Shown here piece by piece: positions 1,056 through 4,832 of a stretch of 7,660 nt of DNA. Below the pieces are notes generated by a model, which was not told the origin of the DNA, did no database searches, and worked only from the letters and a program-made list of their open reading frames with translations. The stretch is from an uncultured Acidobacteriota bacterium (GTDB lineage: Bacteria; Acidobacteriota; Blastocatellia; Pyrinomonadales; Pyrinomonadaceae), in the NCBI GenBank assembly GCA_946480545.1, contig CAMLKY010000082.1, positions 1 to 7,660 of the forward strand, in the 5' to 3' direction. Numbering within the stretch: the first letter of the stretch is position 1; every line of letters begins with the position of its first letter. A program made the position numbers and the translations under genes.

Positions 1056-1694
1056 ATGAGAAGTTTTCTTACTAACTTAGTTCTGTTCGTCGCATTGGCA
1101 ATCATTCTTTCGAGCATGGCCGGCTGCTCGGGCACTGCGAGTTCCGAAAAGGCCCCGGCGAACGACCCCCAGCCCCAGGCCGCCTCAAACGAACCGAAAG
1201 CTCCTCCGGCTGAAAAGTCTGAAGAGGAGAAAAAGCAGAATCCGAATTATCGTCCGATCGAGAAGGCGATCGACGAGTCGCAGATCAAGAATCTCGACGG
1301 ATCTACGTTCAGGGTCGCCGACAAGCGGGGAAAAGTTATCCTGCTGAACATGTGGGCCACTTGGTGCGGTCCGTGTCGAGCAGAGATGCCGGCGCTTGTT
1401 CGCATGCAGGAAGAGCTTGGCGGTCAGGGTCTCGAGGTCATCGGGCTCAACACGGATGACGAGACTGTCGATCAGATCAACGAGTTCGCCGCGGATATGA
1501 AGTTGAATTACACGCTGACGTGGGCCGACACCGATCTGCAGACGGCACTCGTCCGCATCAGCAAGTTCCCCGGAATCCCGCAGAGCTTTATCATCGACCG
1601 TGATGGAAATCTGCGCGGGGTATTTCGCGGTGCAAAACCGGCAGACATAAAACAGATGGAAGAGCTTGTGAGGATGATCGTCACGAACGGTTAA
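1056..1694 (+). CDS. TlpA/ResA-type thiol-disulfide oxidoreductase lipoprotein
   Basis: This is a 213-residue exported thioredoxin-fold protein. The ATG at 1056 is preferred over the in-frame TTG at 1029, because from 1056 the protein opens with a compact signal peptide (MRSF, then a hydrophobic run) ending in the lipobox SMAGC. That predicts lipidation at Cys24 and anchoring on the periplasmic face of a membrane. Residues ~25-70 form a Pro/Ala/Lys/Glu-rich spacer. The AhpC-TSA/redoxin-like domain follows, with the catalytic WCGPC motif (Cys104 and Cys107) and a later GIPQSF with the cis-proline next to the active site. Family members reduce or exchange disulfides of extracytoplasmic proteins, for example in cytochrome c maturation; no cytochrome gene is present here to fix the substrate. 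The Shine-Dalgarno site is weak (cgagaa). It lies 47 nt after the SUMF1 stop and may share its transcript. Its stop overlaps the stop of the opposing rqcH gene. Confidence 0.9.
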   Translation: MRSFLTNLVLFVALAIILSSMAGCSGTASSEKAPANDPQPQAASNEPKAPPAEKSEEEKKQNPNYRPIEKAIDESQIKNLDGSTFRVADKRGKVILLNMWATWCGPCRAEMPALVRMQEELGGQGLEVIGLNTDDETVDQINEFAADMKLNYTLTWADTDLQTALVRISKFPGIPQSFIIDRDGNLRGVFRGAKPADIKQMEELVRMIVTNG

Positions 1695-3142
1695 TCGGTC
1701 TTGAGCTTTGCGTCGCCAATCTTCGGCTCGACGAGCAGCGTCTTAAAACTCGCCAGACTTACCAGCCCCGGTGCGGCGCCCCGGGGCTTATTCACGAACT
1801 TCTTTAACGTATAGTGCACCGCGGCCTTGGTCTGGCTCTTACCCTGGCTGTAGAACGCGGCTAGCTGTGCGGCCTCGACCAGGGTCTTATGCGGGATCTC
1901 TTTCCGGTTCGGATTGCGAACAACGACATGCGAGCCCGGGTAGTCCGCGGCGTGCATCCATGTGTCGAGTGACTTTGCGATCCGAAAGGTCAGGAAATCG
2001 TTGTCCGTCGACTTCTTACCGACGAGGATGTCGAAGCCGTCGGATGATATGAAATTCCGAACTCCGGTGGGCGCCGGCTCCTTCTTTTTTCGCGGAGTTA
2101 CGTCGGCCTTGGAATGGCTTACCCCTGCGGCATTCTCGATATAGGCTTCGTCTCCGCGTTCGATAGCAGCTTCCAGATCGTTGTGCGCTTTTGCGAGTGC
2201 AAGTAGCTCGCCCTCGAGCGTCGTCGTCCGATTCTCGATCTCGTCGCGTGCGTTCCGAGCTTTGGTGTAGCGCCTGAAGTATTTCTCCGCCGCTTCCGAC
2301 AGTGAGTCCTGCGGGTCGATCTCGATCGCAATCTCGGGCGCGGATTCGTCAAAGTAGTCGATCACGAAAACCCTATCGCCCTCGCGCCGGGCATTGGAGA
2401 CATTCGCCAGCAGAAGATCGCCAAGACGTTTCCATTTTTCCGCGTCACCGTGACGTTCAAGGTCGTCCCTCAACTTCCCGAGAAGCTTCTCGCGTTTTGT
2501 GATCTCGCGACGAATGCGATTCCGGGCTGCTGCTTCGAGCGAACGCAGGCGTGCCGACTCATCGCTCGCAAGGTGAAACTCGTCGAGGGCTTGCGACAGC
2601 GATCCATCGACCGCCGTTAATTTCCGCGGCCTTTCTCGCGCTGTACCGCCCGTTCTCTTTTCCGGCGGCGCATATCTCTCACCCGTCTGCTGACCGGTTC
2701 CCGATGTGCTCCTGGCCCGTTCCAGGATCGTGCCCTCGTCGTCGAGCAGGAACAGGTTCGCCGATTTACCGGTGAGCTGGACGATCAACGTGAACTTCGT
2801 CTCCCGCTCGAGCTCATCCATCGTTATGAATCCGAATGAGACTACACGTTCGTCCGCGATTTGTTGAATTGCCGTAACTGTCGCGCCGGAGAGCCGCCCG
2901 CGAACAAATTGCGAGAAGGCCGAAAGCCCGATCGACTCTTTCTCCAGATCGCGAAGCCGGCGTTTGATGAGATAAAGACGCGGCTTCGAGGGCTCGGCAC
3001 TAATAAACAGATATCGCGAATCGGCGAGTCGAAAGTCGATAGCCAGTTCCAGCCGCGAGAGCTGAAACAACTTACCGAGCCGCCGGCCGGAAAGCTCCGA
3101 CTCGAGCTCGGGAATTATCGCCTCGATGGTGCGAAGGTCCAC
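1691..3142 (-). CDS. rqcH: RqcH/NFACT family ribosome-associated quality control factor
   Basis: This 483-residue protein belongs to the NFACT family (bacterial RqcH, eukaryotic Rqc2/NEMF; older name fibronectin-binding protein A). RqcH binds 50S subunits obstructed by peptidyl-tRNA and recruits alanyl-tRNA to add C-terminal alanine tails that mark the stalled chain for degradation. Residues ~1-170 form NFACT-N (ELSGRRLGKLFQLSRLEL near the start; QIADERVVSFGF at ~94-105). Residues ~190-330 are charged and helical, the coiled-coil arms. Residues ~360-480 form NFACT-R (DUF814), with the hallmark DTWMHAADYPGSHVVVR from residue 393. It is shorter than the roughly 570 residues of the Bacillus protein. 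The Asp-Arg pair important for tRNA recruitment in B. subtilis appears here as Glu98-Arg99. The start is GTG; no purine-rich Shine-Dalgarno precedes it, and the leader is pyrimidine-rich. The start is supported by its fit to the usual NFACT N-terminus. Confidence 0.92.
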   Translation of the reverse strand: MDLRTIEAIIPELESELSGRRLGKLFQLSRLELAIDFRLADSRYLFISAEPSKPRLYLIKRRLRDLEKESIGLSAFSQFVRGRLSGATVTAIQQIADERVVSFGFITMDELERETKFTLIVQLTGKSANLFLLDDEGTILERARSTSGTGQQTGERYAPPEKRTGGTARERPRKLTAVDGSLSQALDEFHLASDESARLRSLEAAARNRIRREITKREKLLGKLRDDLERHGDAEKWKRLGDLLLANVSNARREGDRVFVIDYFDESAPEIAIEIDPQDSLSEAAEKYFRRYTKARNARDEIENRTTTLEGELLALAKAHNDLEAAIERGDEAYIENAAGVSHSKADVTPRKKKEPAPTGVRNFISSDGFDILVGKKSTDNDFLTFRIAKSLDTWMHAADYPGSHVVVRNPNRKEIPHKTLVEAAQLAAFYSQGKSQTKAAVHYTLKKFVNKPRGAAPGLVSLASFKTLLVEPKIGDAKLKTD

Positions 3143-3179
3143 AACGAGAGTCTAAGAGGAGGAAATGAAAAGTCCAAGG

Positions 3180-3191
3180 AGGAGGTGATCC
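3180..3191 (-). promoter_or_regulatory. Anti-Shine-Dalgarno-like 12-mer in the rqcH leader
   Basis: On the minus strand this reads GGATCACCTCCT, identical to the conserved 3' tail of bacterial 16S rRNA. It ends 37 nt before the rqcH GTG. A second pyrimidine block, CCTCCTCTT (3154-3162), lies between it and the start. The rest of the 16S 3' end (helix 45) is absent, so this is not an rRNA fragment. A regulatory role is inference; chance similarity in a biased stretch is possible. Confidence 0.35.
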
Positions 3192-3209
3192 GGTAAACTT
3201 TCAGCCTGA

Positions 3210-3215
3210 AGTATA
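3210..3215 (-). promoter_or_regulatory. Possible -10 box for rqcH
   Basis: The minus strand reads TATACT, five of six consensus positions, placing a transcription start near 3203 and giving a leader of about 60 nt. No acceptable -35 hexamer is found 16-18 nt upstream, where the arm of the inverted repeat element begins. The call is weak and rests on position and the -10 match alone. Confidence 0.25.
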
Positions 3216-3225
3216 GCTGGACGGG

Positions 3226-3387
3226 CCCGTCAGGGACGCTTGAGAATAGCCCACCGATTCATCGGTGGGAGATGTTCAGCCAGCGCTCGAAATCCCGGAG
3301 GGACTATCAGTCGTCCCTTCGGGACTTGCGTCGAAGCGCTCGATCCCAGCGATAAATCGCTGGGCTATTCTCAGATGTCCCTGCGGG
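3226..3387 (+). repeat. Two-unit inverted, multi-hairpin element with REPIN architecture
   Basis: Two copies of one unit face each other around a centre at ~3305-3312. The left unit reads inward as an arm CCCGTCAGGGAC (3226-3237), three bases, TGAGAATAG (3241-3249), a perfect 9-bp hairpin CCCACCGAT/ATCGGTGGG with a 2-nt loop (3250-3269), AGCGCTCGA (3282-3290) and the mini-hairpin TCCCGGAGGGA (3293-3303). The right unit, read on the minus strand, repeats every part: CCCGCAGGGAC (3387-3377), TGAGAATAG (3373-3365), CCCAGCGAT/ATCGCTGGG (3364-3345), a GCGCT block and TCCCGAAGGGA. The two large hairpins differ at a paired position (C-G versus G-C), so each stays perfect. Paired inverted REPs, each with a short conserved tag before a palindrome, are the REPIN layout mobilised by RAYT (IS200-like) transposases. 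The tag here would be ATAG, not the classic GTAG/GGAG. No transposase is in the window. Copy number elsewhere is unknown. Confidence 0.8.
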
Positions 3388-3467
3388 ATCGCCTCGGTAG
3401 AAAAAGCAATGTAAATCGCTCCATCTTTCCAAGGCTCGCGTTCGTTCAGTCGGCGCGTGCGGCTCTT

Positions 3468-4832
3468 CTAGTATTCGCGGACGAGGATCGTGCCCGAAAG
3501 GATGTCGTGCGCCGCTCGACGCTCCTCGTTGAAGAAGACCGGGAGGAATCCGATACCCGCGAAGATCAACGACAAGAGATAGACCGCCGAGCTTACCGCC
3601 GCCTGATGCAATGTCGGATACGCATTTTCCTCGACATCGACCAGTTCGAGCGAGAACAATCGCATTCCGATCGAGCGTCCGAAAAACGCCAGCGATGTCG
3701 TGAGATAAAGGAACATCACTATCGCGAGAGCGGCAGTAAATGCGAACGCTCCCGATAGAGACAGCCAGGTGCCGCCCGCGAGCATGAAGGGTGAAAGCAG
3801 GATCAGGGTCGCAAACAAACCGACGATCACGTCGAATACGCCCGACCCGAAGCGCATCGAGAGCGGCGCGAGATCTTCGATCTCATCGGTTTCTTCATTC
3901 TCGATCTCAACGATGTCATTCTCGATCGCCTTCTCGGCCACGCGTACGTCGATCGCCGTAGATGCCGCGGCGGCCGCGGGAATAAAGGCTCGCTCCGGAG
4001 ATGCCTGATCCGGAAGTCGGGGAAGTTTGTTGGTGTCGAACCCTCGCTTCTCGATCTTGAGAGGCGAGACGAGCATCGGCTTTGGCGACGGGTTGACGAT
4101 CGTCTTGCCCGGCTGACGCGGAGCGGCGTCGCTCGGTGCCACAACATTAAAAGGAAAATTGCGCGACGACGGCGGTTTGCCGATCTTCACCGATTGTTCG
4201 GCGACGGGCTGATTCGAAAAAATCTTGCGCGAAGCCTCGATGCGTTTCAGCGCATTCGCGACGCGCGGATTCTGATGGCGCGGTTGTTCGTCTTCGACAA
4301 ACTCAACCTTCAGCGCGTTCGCTCCGTTAGTCGTGCGCGGCGTCGAGGCCGGAGCCTCGGTCGCGTCAGAACGCTTGTTCGTTCCAACTTTCTGTCTGAC
4401 CGAATTCTGGAGCTGCAGACGCCACTCCGGAACCGTCGCTTTCTTTGTCTGAAACTCGACCAGCGTCGGGCTCGTCTTTTTGACGCGGAGATCGTTCGTA
4501 TCAAAGCGTGCCGCGATCGGCTTTGGTTGAACCGCCGGAGCTGGCGGCGGTGGCGCGGAAGCTTTCGGCGGCGGCGGTGGGGACACTTCCTTTTTCACGG
4601 GCGGCGGTTGTACATCCTTCACGACCGGAACTTGCGGAATTGCCGGAGGCGTCACCAGCGCGCCAGGATCACGCTTCGGCAAGCCGAGTCTTCCGCTCAC
4701 CGAAATCGCAGCCTCGCCCTTGGAGATCTTGGTCTCGAGCTCCTCGCGGACCGTGTCGTTGATCATGGCTCCGCATTGAAGGCAAATAGAAAGAGTAGGG
4801 GCAAGATCACGTTTACAGACCGGACAGATCAT
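3468..4832 (-). CDS. Zinc-ribbon, proline-rich, RDD-family membrane protein
   Basis: This 454-residue protein has three parts. Residues 1-22 form a zinc ribbon with two CxxC pairs (Cys3/Cys6 and Cys17/Cys20), which start right at the N-terminus and so support this ATG. Residues ~55-320 form a long low-complexity, probably disordered region with polyproline runs (PPPVKKEVSPPPPP, APPPPAP) and an acidic stretch just before the membrane. Residues ~324-453 form an RDD domain with about three membrane helices (~331-353, ~358-384, ~412-433), the Arg/Asp pair of the first helix (Arg327, Asp334), a GRSIGMRLFSLEL loop and the C-terminal RRAAHDILSGT signature. RDD proteins are inner-membrane proteins of mostly unknown role; some have been linked to ion transport. 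Only the architecture can be stated here, and no substrate is visible. The gene probably has its own promoter (4890-4919). A weak Shine-Dalgarno (cgagaaa) precedes the start. Confidence 0.88.
   Translation of the reverse strand: MICPVCKRDLAPTLSICLQCGAMINDTVREELETKISKGEAAISVSGRLGLPKRDPGALVTPPAIPQVPVVKDVQPPPVKKEVSPPPPPKASAPPPPAPAVQPKPIAARFDTNDLRVKKTSPTLVEFQTKKATVPEWRLQLQNSVRQKVGTNKRSDATEAPASTPRTTNGANALKVEFVEDEQPRHQNPRVANALKRIEASRKIFSNQPVAEQSVKIGKPPSSRNFPFNVVAPSDAAPRQPGKTIVNPSPKPMLVSPLKIEKRGFDTNKLPRLPDQASPERAFIPAAAAASTAIDVRVAEKAIENDIVEIENEETDEIEDLAPLSMRFGSGVFDVIVGLFATLILLSPFMLAGGTWLSLSGAFAFTAALAIVMFLYLTTSLAFFGRSIGMRLFSLELVDVEENAYPTLHQAAVSSAVYLLSLIFAGIGFLPVFFNEERRAAHDILSGTILVREY

Follow-up and report, generated by a model that had tools for sequence, protein, structure and literature searches.

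What is the mirrored, hairpin-rich sequence that separates two otherwise ordinary genes in this stretch of acidobacterial DNA, and what put it there? The stretch, 7,660 nt in all and hereafter called the window, had been given a preliminary description in which the sequence figured as a REPIN-like element with a compensatory change in its hairpins, mobilized by a RAYT. Comparison with related genomes leads us to a reading that we consider very probable, namely that this is a REPIN-like miniature without a gene of its own, belonging to a mobile-element family and derived from tnpA elements of 640–740 bp. The REPIN-type layout is already known; what is new is that such repeats are tied to a subclass-1.2 transposase family that the literature covered here does not link to them.

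The anatomy of the element is regular. Each half consists of an outer mini-hairpin, a short linker, an AATAG tag, a 9-bp hairpin, a further linker and an inner mini-hairpin, the right half being inverted, which over 3224–3390 amounts to two large and four mini hairpins (Table 1). When the left half is aligned with the reverse complement of the right half, the score of 90 is attained by none of 1,000 base shuffles; an inverted-repeat search returns 40-nt arms, 85% complementary and 73 nt apart, and the fold of 3226–3387 reaches −101.3 kcal/mol as compared with −55.5 (sd 3.85) for 200 dinucleotide shuffles (z −11.9). A covariance model of the half-unit, R1, matches at 3221–3271 on the plus strand (48.2 bits) and at 3343–3392 on the minus strand (58.4 bits), both window halves being included in the 38 rows from which it was built. 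The mirrored layout first proposed for this sequence is thus upheld by stem check, shuffles and fold, as is the reality of the element; its limits require amendment, since the true unit, in which the outer mini-hairpin on the left is degenerate, slightly exceeds the 3226..3387 originally assigned to it. The C–G to G–C swap between the large hairpins is also present (CCCACCGAT..ATCGGTGGG versus CCCAGCGAT..ATCGCTGGG). It had been offered as direct evidence that pairing is kept, for which a swap within one element is weak by itself, and it is the covariation among relatives that is decisive. Two REPs in inverted order, able to form one hairpin, are the trait of a REPIN, and the window element has it; it likewise has that of a MITE, with ends common to the tnpA elements of relatives and no transposase gene inside, no transposase-like frame being seen among the ORFs of 3224–3390 when these were judged by eye.

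Table 1. The mirrored element of the window, its Rfam matches and the genes on either side
Feature	Position	Strand	Basis
Whole mirrored element, 167 nt, REPIN-like	3224..3390	no strand	Stem check, inverted-repeat search, fold, R1 matches
Outer mini-hairpin, left half, one pair broken	3224..3237	+	Stem check
AATAG tag (NTAG foot), 5′ of left large hairpin	3245..3249	+	Stem check
Left large hairpin, 9 bp	3250..3269	+	Stem check, covariation
Inner mini-hairpin, left half	3292..3304	+	Stem check
Inner mini-hairpin, right half	3313..3325	−	Stem check
Right large hairpin, 9 bp, fifth pair swapped	3345..3364	−	Stem check, covariation
CTATT on +, AATAG tag on −, right half	3365..3369	−	Stem check
Outer mini-hairpin, right half	3376..3390	−	Stem check
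Rfam RF01687 Acido-Lenti-1 match, 31.5 bits (cut-off 37)	3345..3390	+	Rfam covariance model search
Rfam RF01687 match, 29.5 bits (cut-off 37), 7 model positions skipped in mini-hairpin	3228..3269	−	
NFACT protein gene, neighbour of insertion	1691..3142	−	Pfam PF05833
RDD-family protein gene, neighbour of insertion	3468..4832	−	Pfam PF06271

The half-unit already has a name. In both halves, positions 1–46 of the 46 in the Rfam model RF01687, Acido-Lenti-1, can be aligned, comprising the large hairpin, GGCTA and the mini-hairpin; both matches miss the gathering cut-off of 37 bits, which is exceeded by units of relatives whose hairpin is identical or almost so (up to 53.1 bits in genome G004, 39.5 at locus L066). 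The motif is described as lying near group II introns, and the group II intron model RF00029 has matches in 4 of 22 genomes, at 5 places (2 above cut-off), one of which, in G293, is about 0.9 kb from a unit. A table row in PMC2864571, as far as its text is accessible, grades Acido-Lenti-1 “y” as an RNA and assigns it to Acidobacteria and Lentisphaerae; the accessible portion of PMC10059132 notes a Vibrio chromosome with multiple copies, and that of PMC13298647 (2026) places such ncRNAs 3′ of two protease genes, describing their function as little known and suggesting regulation of neighbouring genes.

Relatives were reached through the NFACT protein, which led to 21 Acidobacteria-type loci (best match 59% identity, in an Acidobacteria gp4 bin; a clostridial 22nd match was excluded); G-numbers denote the genomes and L-numbers loci in them. 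RF01687 matches 116 times in 13 of these 21 genomes, nine of which have matches above the cut-off, and where two matches lie less than 250 bp apart they form head-out −/+ pairs in 27 of 30 cases, so that the paired architecture that was to be looked for among further copies is indeed kept. By eye, 21 pairs broadly repeat the anatomy of the window element in quite different sequences. Matches to the Y1 transposase family (PF01797) occur in 19 of the 21 genomes, and among 88 Y1 rows (those scoring about 50 bits or more, and a single one of 44.9), 12 lie within 1 kb of an RF01687 match, against 0.34 expected from uniform scatter.

Do these copies preserve pairing while their sequences drift? From 77 half-units, 64 were aligned (A1), excluding 5 that are truncated, 5 with extended hairpins, 2 that overlap (L107) and 1 at L111. 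Because other hairpin lengths shift a column, a second alignment (A2), the basis of both R1 and the covariation test, was restricted to 38 of these 64 rows, which are hence more uniform. These 38 half-units, 37 of them distinct, have standard pairs in 97.1% of their pair cells, as opposed to 69.7 in shuffles, and a covariation score of 0.663 as opposed to 0.171 in shuffles and 0.051–0.150 in slid versions, which supplies the covariation across copies that the preliminary description had called for. For two of the five measures no clear excess is seen over the shuffles, which themselves ignore relatedness: double changes, seen in 12 of 14 pairs against 9.9 (attained by 21 of 500), and further pair types, 21 against 19.5 (attained by 113 of 500). 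TAGCC is invariant in the 38 rows, and AAAGCC is also present among the 64 of A1. The tag itself is mostly ATAG or TTAG, with GTAG in some units of G010, G016 and G017. In 66 half-units conservation extends as far as the outer mini-hairpins and no further; in these, a search for a target-site motif outside the outer mini-hairpin gives hardly any signal (at most 0.21 bits per position).

Covariation of this kind, together with the Rfam listing under the type “Gene; sRNA”, is what would recommend a functional small RNA or a cis-acting RNA, the regulatory role suggested in the accessible text of PMC13298647 being one form of it. We regard that reading as extremely unlikely, for identical covariation is expected from hairpins in single-stranded DNA, and the opposite-strand mirrored pairs, the bracketed transposase genes described below, the sharp-ended multi-copy families and the presence or absence of units between relatives all fit mobile DNA. 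Multiplicity is pronounced in places. Many copies, as anticipated for a repeat of this sort, are found in some relatives (76 R1 matches in G001; 0 in G009 and in G015), and across the phylum R1 matches 61 of 297 genomes, the best 20 or fewer R1 candidates and 13 or fewer transposase candidates per genome having been scored in these scans. With a half-unit so close to RF01687 and so widely distributed, the expectation that an acidobacterial version would be unusual is not borne out.

Two peculiar arrangements were met in these surveys. At L107 (G017:C26:4204–4281), one large hairpin is common to two oppositely oriented units, resembling the “double foot” REPs of PMC6006769 (as described in its accessible text). 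The closely related genomes G143 and G184 (L143–L148) carry dense unit arrays at mostly matching places but with differing copy number, and beside one such array lies some 9 kb of sequence that the other genome does not have. These arrays were considered as evidence for new insertion and rejected as such, since what they display is mostly copy-number change within arrays at the same places.

The preferred reading, that of a miniature within a mobile family, calls for a gene-bearing form, and relatives have one. At five loci (L048, L052, L054, L060, and L066) a gene stands between two three-hairpin ends, identified by eye, within 636–739 bp overall. For a broader count, a gene was termed bracketed if a plus-strand unit lies at most 400 bp before it and a minus-strand unit at most 400 bp after it; because the class is defined by distance and orientation, it also takes in genes between two complete miniatures (L046, L055). 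Among 30 unselected Y1 loci from 21 genomes, 12 are bracketed, 2 have a unit on one side and 16 have none, and among 7 further loci picked for nearby units, 5 are bracketed, 1 is one-sided and 1 has oppositely oriented flanks, several of these 37 loci having also contributed to R1. The best 30 transposase matches from the 297 genomes, one per genome, comprise 22 that are bracketed, 6 one-sided, 1 oppositely flanked (L123) and 1 without a unit; restricted to the 27 genomes not used for R1, the figures are 20, 5, 1, and 1. Weak and distant R1 rows were omitted from this last test, none of which would alter a class. A Y1 gene flanked by the same repeats, on which the preliminary description had made its proposal depend, is therefore found, although 20 of 27 applies to relatives of the A3 tnpAs and not to all Y1 genes, because A3, the subclass-1.2 transposase profile, was made mostly from bracketed tnpAs. 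Throughout the 297 genomes, R1 and tnpA occur together in 48, R1 only in 13, tnpA only in 18 and neither in 218, a Fisher odds ratio of 44.7 that ignores relatedness.

The inverted ends can also be recovered without R1. In 19 of 25 transposase loci, none of 200 base shuffles attains the observed likeness; in the remaining six, the number that do is 15 for L043 and 26 for L062 (IS200-type controls), 6 for L044, 1 for L061, 29 for L057 and 35 for L098, and thus the subclass-1.2-like loci L057 and L098 lack significant inverted ends by this test. At L051, L067, and L068 the ends differ and no clear NTAG tag is discernible. Nor does every genome with units contain a matching gene: of 15 unit-carrying genomes checked, 6 have no PF01797 match (G016, G017, G160, G175, G215, and G300), G016 and G017 being metagenome bins from which contigs may therefore be missing, and the other 9 have Y1 matches, none to A3 at 1e-25. 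Among the genomes lacking a PF01797 match, G016 and G017 have clear units at L108–L112 and further loci, in part with a genuine GTAG tag. Elsewhere, a tnpA element with the hairpin type of the window sits between the transhydrogenase subunit genes pntA and pntB (L099, G021:C530). Outside the phylum, a Persicobacter plasmid (L189, Bacteroidota) carries a subclass-1.2-like transposase with the same mini-hairpin, TTAG, large hairpin and mini-hairpin ends (0 of 300 shuffles), one unit of which scores 35.7 bits on RF01687, below the cut-off; the transposase of a Bernardetia plasmid (L188, also Bacteroidota) has no such ends (129 of 300 shuffles).

To which class do these transposases belong? In 19 aligned proteins, W–Q, the tyrosine and a Q four residues on are common to all, as is the second H of the HUH motif; the first H is nearly invariant. 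The Y motif is mostly Y---Q--HH and not Y---NP, with YINNQAEHD (L055) and YVLNQEEPY (L085) as exceptions. HUH, Y---Q--HH and a length of about 148 aa are the traits of TnpA-Y1 subclass 1.2, and the relatives' transposases in these 19 rows have them. Compared with solved structures, A3 finds 8 IS200-type transposases, ISHp608 included (E 3e-16 to 2e-11). In the accessible text of PMC6006769, subclass 1.2 is entered as REP “no”, is generally without typical terminal structures and is found mostly in Cyanobacteria and Bacteroidetes. Some bracketed tnpAs may be dead, judging from their sequences: that of L102 (outside A3) is interrupted by a stop, and that of L060 (G013:C9) has Q for the first H of HUH, though G013 carries many units.

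This class assignment bears directly on the proposal of a classical REPIN mobilized by a class-2 RAYT. An inverted doublet, a tag at the foot of the hairpin and a Y1 transposase nearby are what one would expect of such a system. The protein families point elsewhere: six proteins, three of them bracketed, score 64–139 bits with the NCBIfam IS200 model (cut-off 55) and 19–35 with the REP-associated NF047646 (cut-off 80), the three bracketed ones by themselves reaching 67–81 and 19–30, respectively, and the three comparison proteins likewise passing the IS200 model only. With all three bracketed transposases of relatives short of the RAYT cut-off, with a Y motif that is mostly Y---Q--HH and with a tag that is mostly ATAG or TTAG, GTAG appearing in some units, a classical REPIN is very unlikely, and a RAYT improbable as the mobilizer of the window copy, the transposases tested in relatives not being class-2 RAYTs.

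If miniatures descend from tnpA elements, traces of the lost gene might survive, and one family retains them. In copies of about 305 bp in G292, the DNA between the inner mini-hairpins codes for ANSYTSIFIHII or close variants, resembling the start of tnpA; of the 8 stretches tested out of 11 (the rest are cut or hold half an element), none of 500 shuffles attains this in 7, and 10 of 500 do in the eighth. By eye a remnant of the C-terminus (IEYDEKYVW-like) can also be made out, but it is weak by the shuffle test (7–131 of 500). An intact parent was not found in G292, whose Y1 matches include none to A3 at 1e-25. These copies (L149–L159) also have common flanks beyond the outer mini-hairpins, TACATTTTGG.. 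and ..CCAAAATATGTA, as though they lay inside a larger repeat or a specific target, and four G292 contigs end at a copy. Repeats and transposases further match one another pair by pair. In G001, G004, and G010, all 17 half-units tested resemble the ends of one tnpA (0.76–0.92) more than those of the one or two others compared (0.43–0.64), and across 17 tnpAs the distance between proteins follows that between ends (Mantel r 0.79, p 0.0002, n 17, relatedness being ignored). The window halves are closest to the ends of L054, L055, L066, and L060 (0.65–0.82, as against 0.58 or less for the other 13). The tnpAs of these four loci group in a single clade (99/98) of a transposase tree that contains one row, L070, in a wrong reading frame and not a transposase.

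We now turn to the place of insertion. Gene order around NFACT is largely conserved in relatives. The RDD–NFACT gap measures 325 bp in the window and 66–244 bp (median 90) in the 17 relatives with both ends placed, and no R1 unit is found in the 349,915 bases of the relatives' 21 loci. A terminator-like hairpin is seen by eye at this junction in several relatives, and the window keeps a stretch, CCTTGGACTTTTCATTT, similar by eye to the 3′ side of that hairpin in relatives such as L001, this side being all of it that seems to be left there. A comparable case is a copy in G013 between two genes that are conserved in G192, where R1 finds no unit at the locus and the intergenic bases align inexactly. 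Might the window copy, once mobile, now be retained as a device of the host, such as a terminator or an insulator between the RDD and NFACT genes? The terminator-like hairpin of several relatives would suit such a role; a pattern scan gives no terminator in the window junction 3143–3467. The junction of the relatives examined has no unit, and one outer mini-hairpin of the window copy has a broken pair, and we therefore judge retention as a host device to be unlikely.

How, then, might a miniature mobile element of this family work? A full member consists of one gene, for a HUH/Y1 single-strand TnpA of about 150 aa (subclass 1.2), between two inverted three-hairpin ends, and miniatures would arise by loss of the gene, the ends being drawn close. 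When the DNA becomes single-stranded, for instance on the lagging strand, the cognate TnpA probably recognizes the large hairpin with its NTAG tag, and its tyrosine probably cuts and joins near the ends of the element. Gene-less copies would be moved in trans by TnpA, as proposed for REPINs; one such copy, probably dependent on a TnpA of this kind, would have inserted between the RDD and NFACT genes of the window.

For Acido-Lenti-1 the consequences may reach further. What has been described as a candidate RNA is here one end of a mirrored element able to hold a transposase gene. We give roughly even chances to the more general proposition that Acido-Lenti-1 is not an RNA gene and instead marks the terminus of a distinct system of single-strand transposition, in which six-hairpin elements with inverted ends are moved by an IS200-type subclass-1.2 TnpA, which is present in Acidobacteriota and at least one Bacteroidota plasmid, and whose REPIN-like architecture has its starting point in class 1 (IS200) and not in class-2 RAYTs. 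In the literature searched, to which subscription papers mostly do not belong, we found nothing joining Acido-Lenti-1 to REPs or to a transposase. Such a system would account at once for two orphans: a bacterial “RNA” that has been catalogued with no function assigned, and a transposase subclass for which no substrate is known. A further suggestion is that REPIN-like parasites can also arise around transposases of the IS200 type, and the question of how REPINs and RAYTs originated thereby becomes testable. There is a warning in it as well: strong covariation can stem from single-stranded DNA transposition rather than from RNA function.

Finally, the family may be set beside systems already known. 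IS200/IS605 elements have subterminal hairpins in direct orientation and no inverted ends; the present family differs in the inverted ends found at 19 of 25 transposase loci. The PATEs of Haloquadratum (PMC3119063, accessible text) are similar in being gene-less derivatives of IS605-type elements, formed by core deletion, with near-terminal palindromes, and dissimilar in being without inverted terminal repeats, the ends of the window element being inverted. TIRYTs and TIRtrons (PMC3733652) likewise have Y1 genes of Acidobacteria between inverted repeats, of which one constitutes a repeat family. Part of the present family may have been drawn there under another name, the comparison being one of accessible text, since the TIR sequences are in figures; that paper is not among the full-text matches for Acido-Lenti-1. 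With the subclass 1.2 set out in the accessible text of PMC6006769, our transposases share a length of about 150 aa and the HUH, WQ and Y---Q--HH motifs; what sets them apart is the elaborate inverted ends of most best-matching Acidobacteriota copies examined and of 1 of 2 Bacteroidota copies. The closest likeness in layout is to REPIN/RAYT systems as presented in the accessible texts of PMC3116915, PMC6006769, and PMC8266576, which have in common with ours an inverted doublet of tagged palindromes, gene-less copies alongside a Y1 transposase whose gene stands between the same palindromes, and pair-wise matching of transposase and repeat. They have a GT[AG]G foot, whereas the tag here is AATAG in the window and NTAG in most units, and the present family departs from them further in its class-1 (subclass 1.2) transposase, in the two mini-hairpins of each end and in a repeat that reaches beyond the tag.
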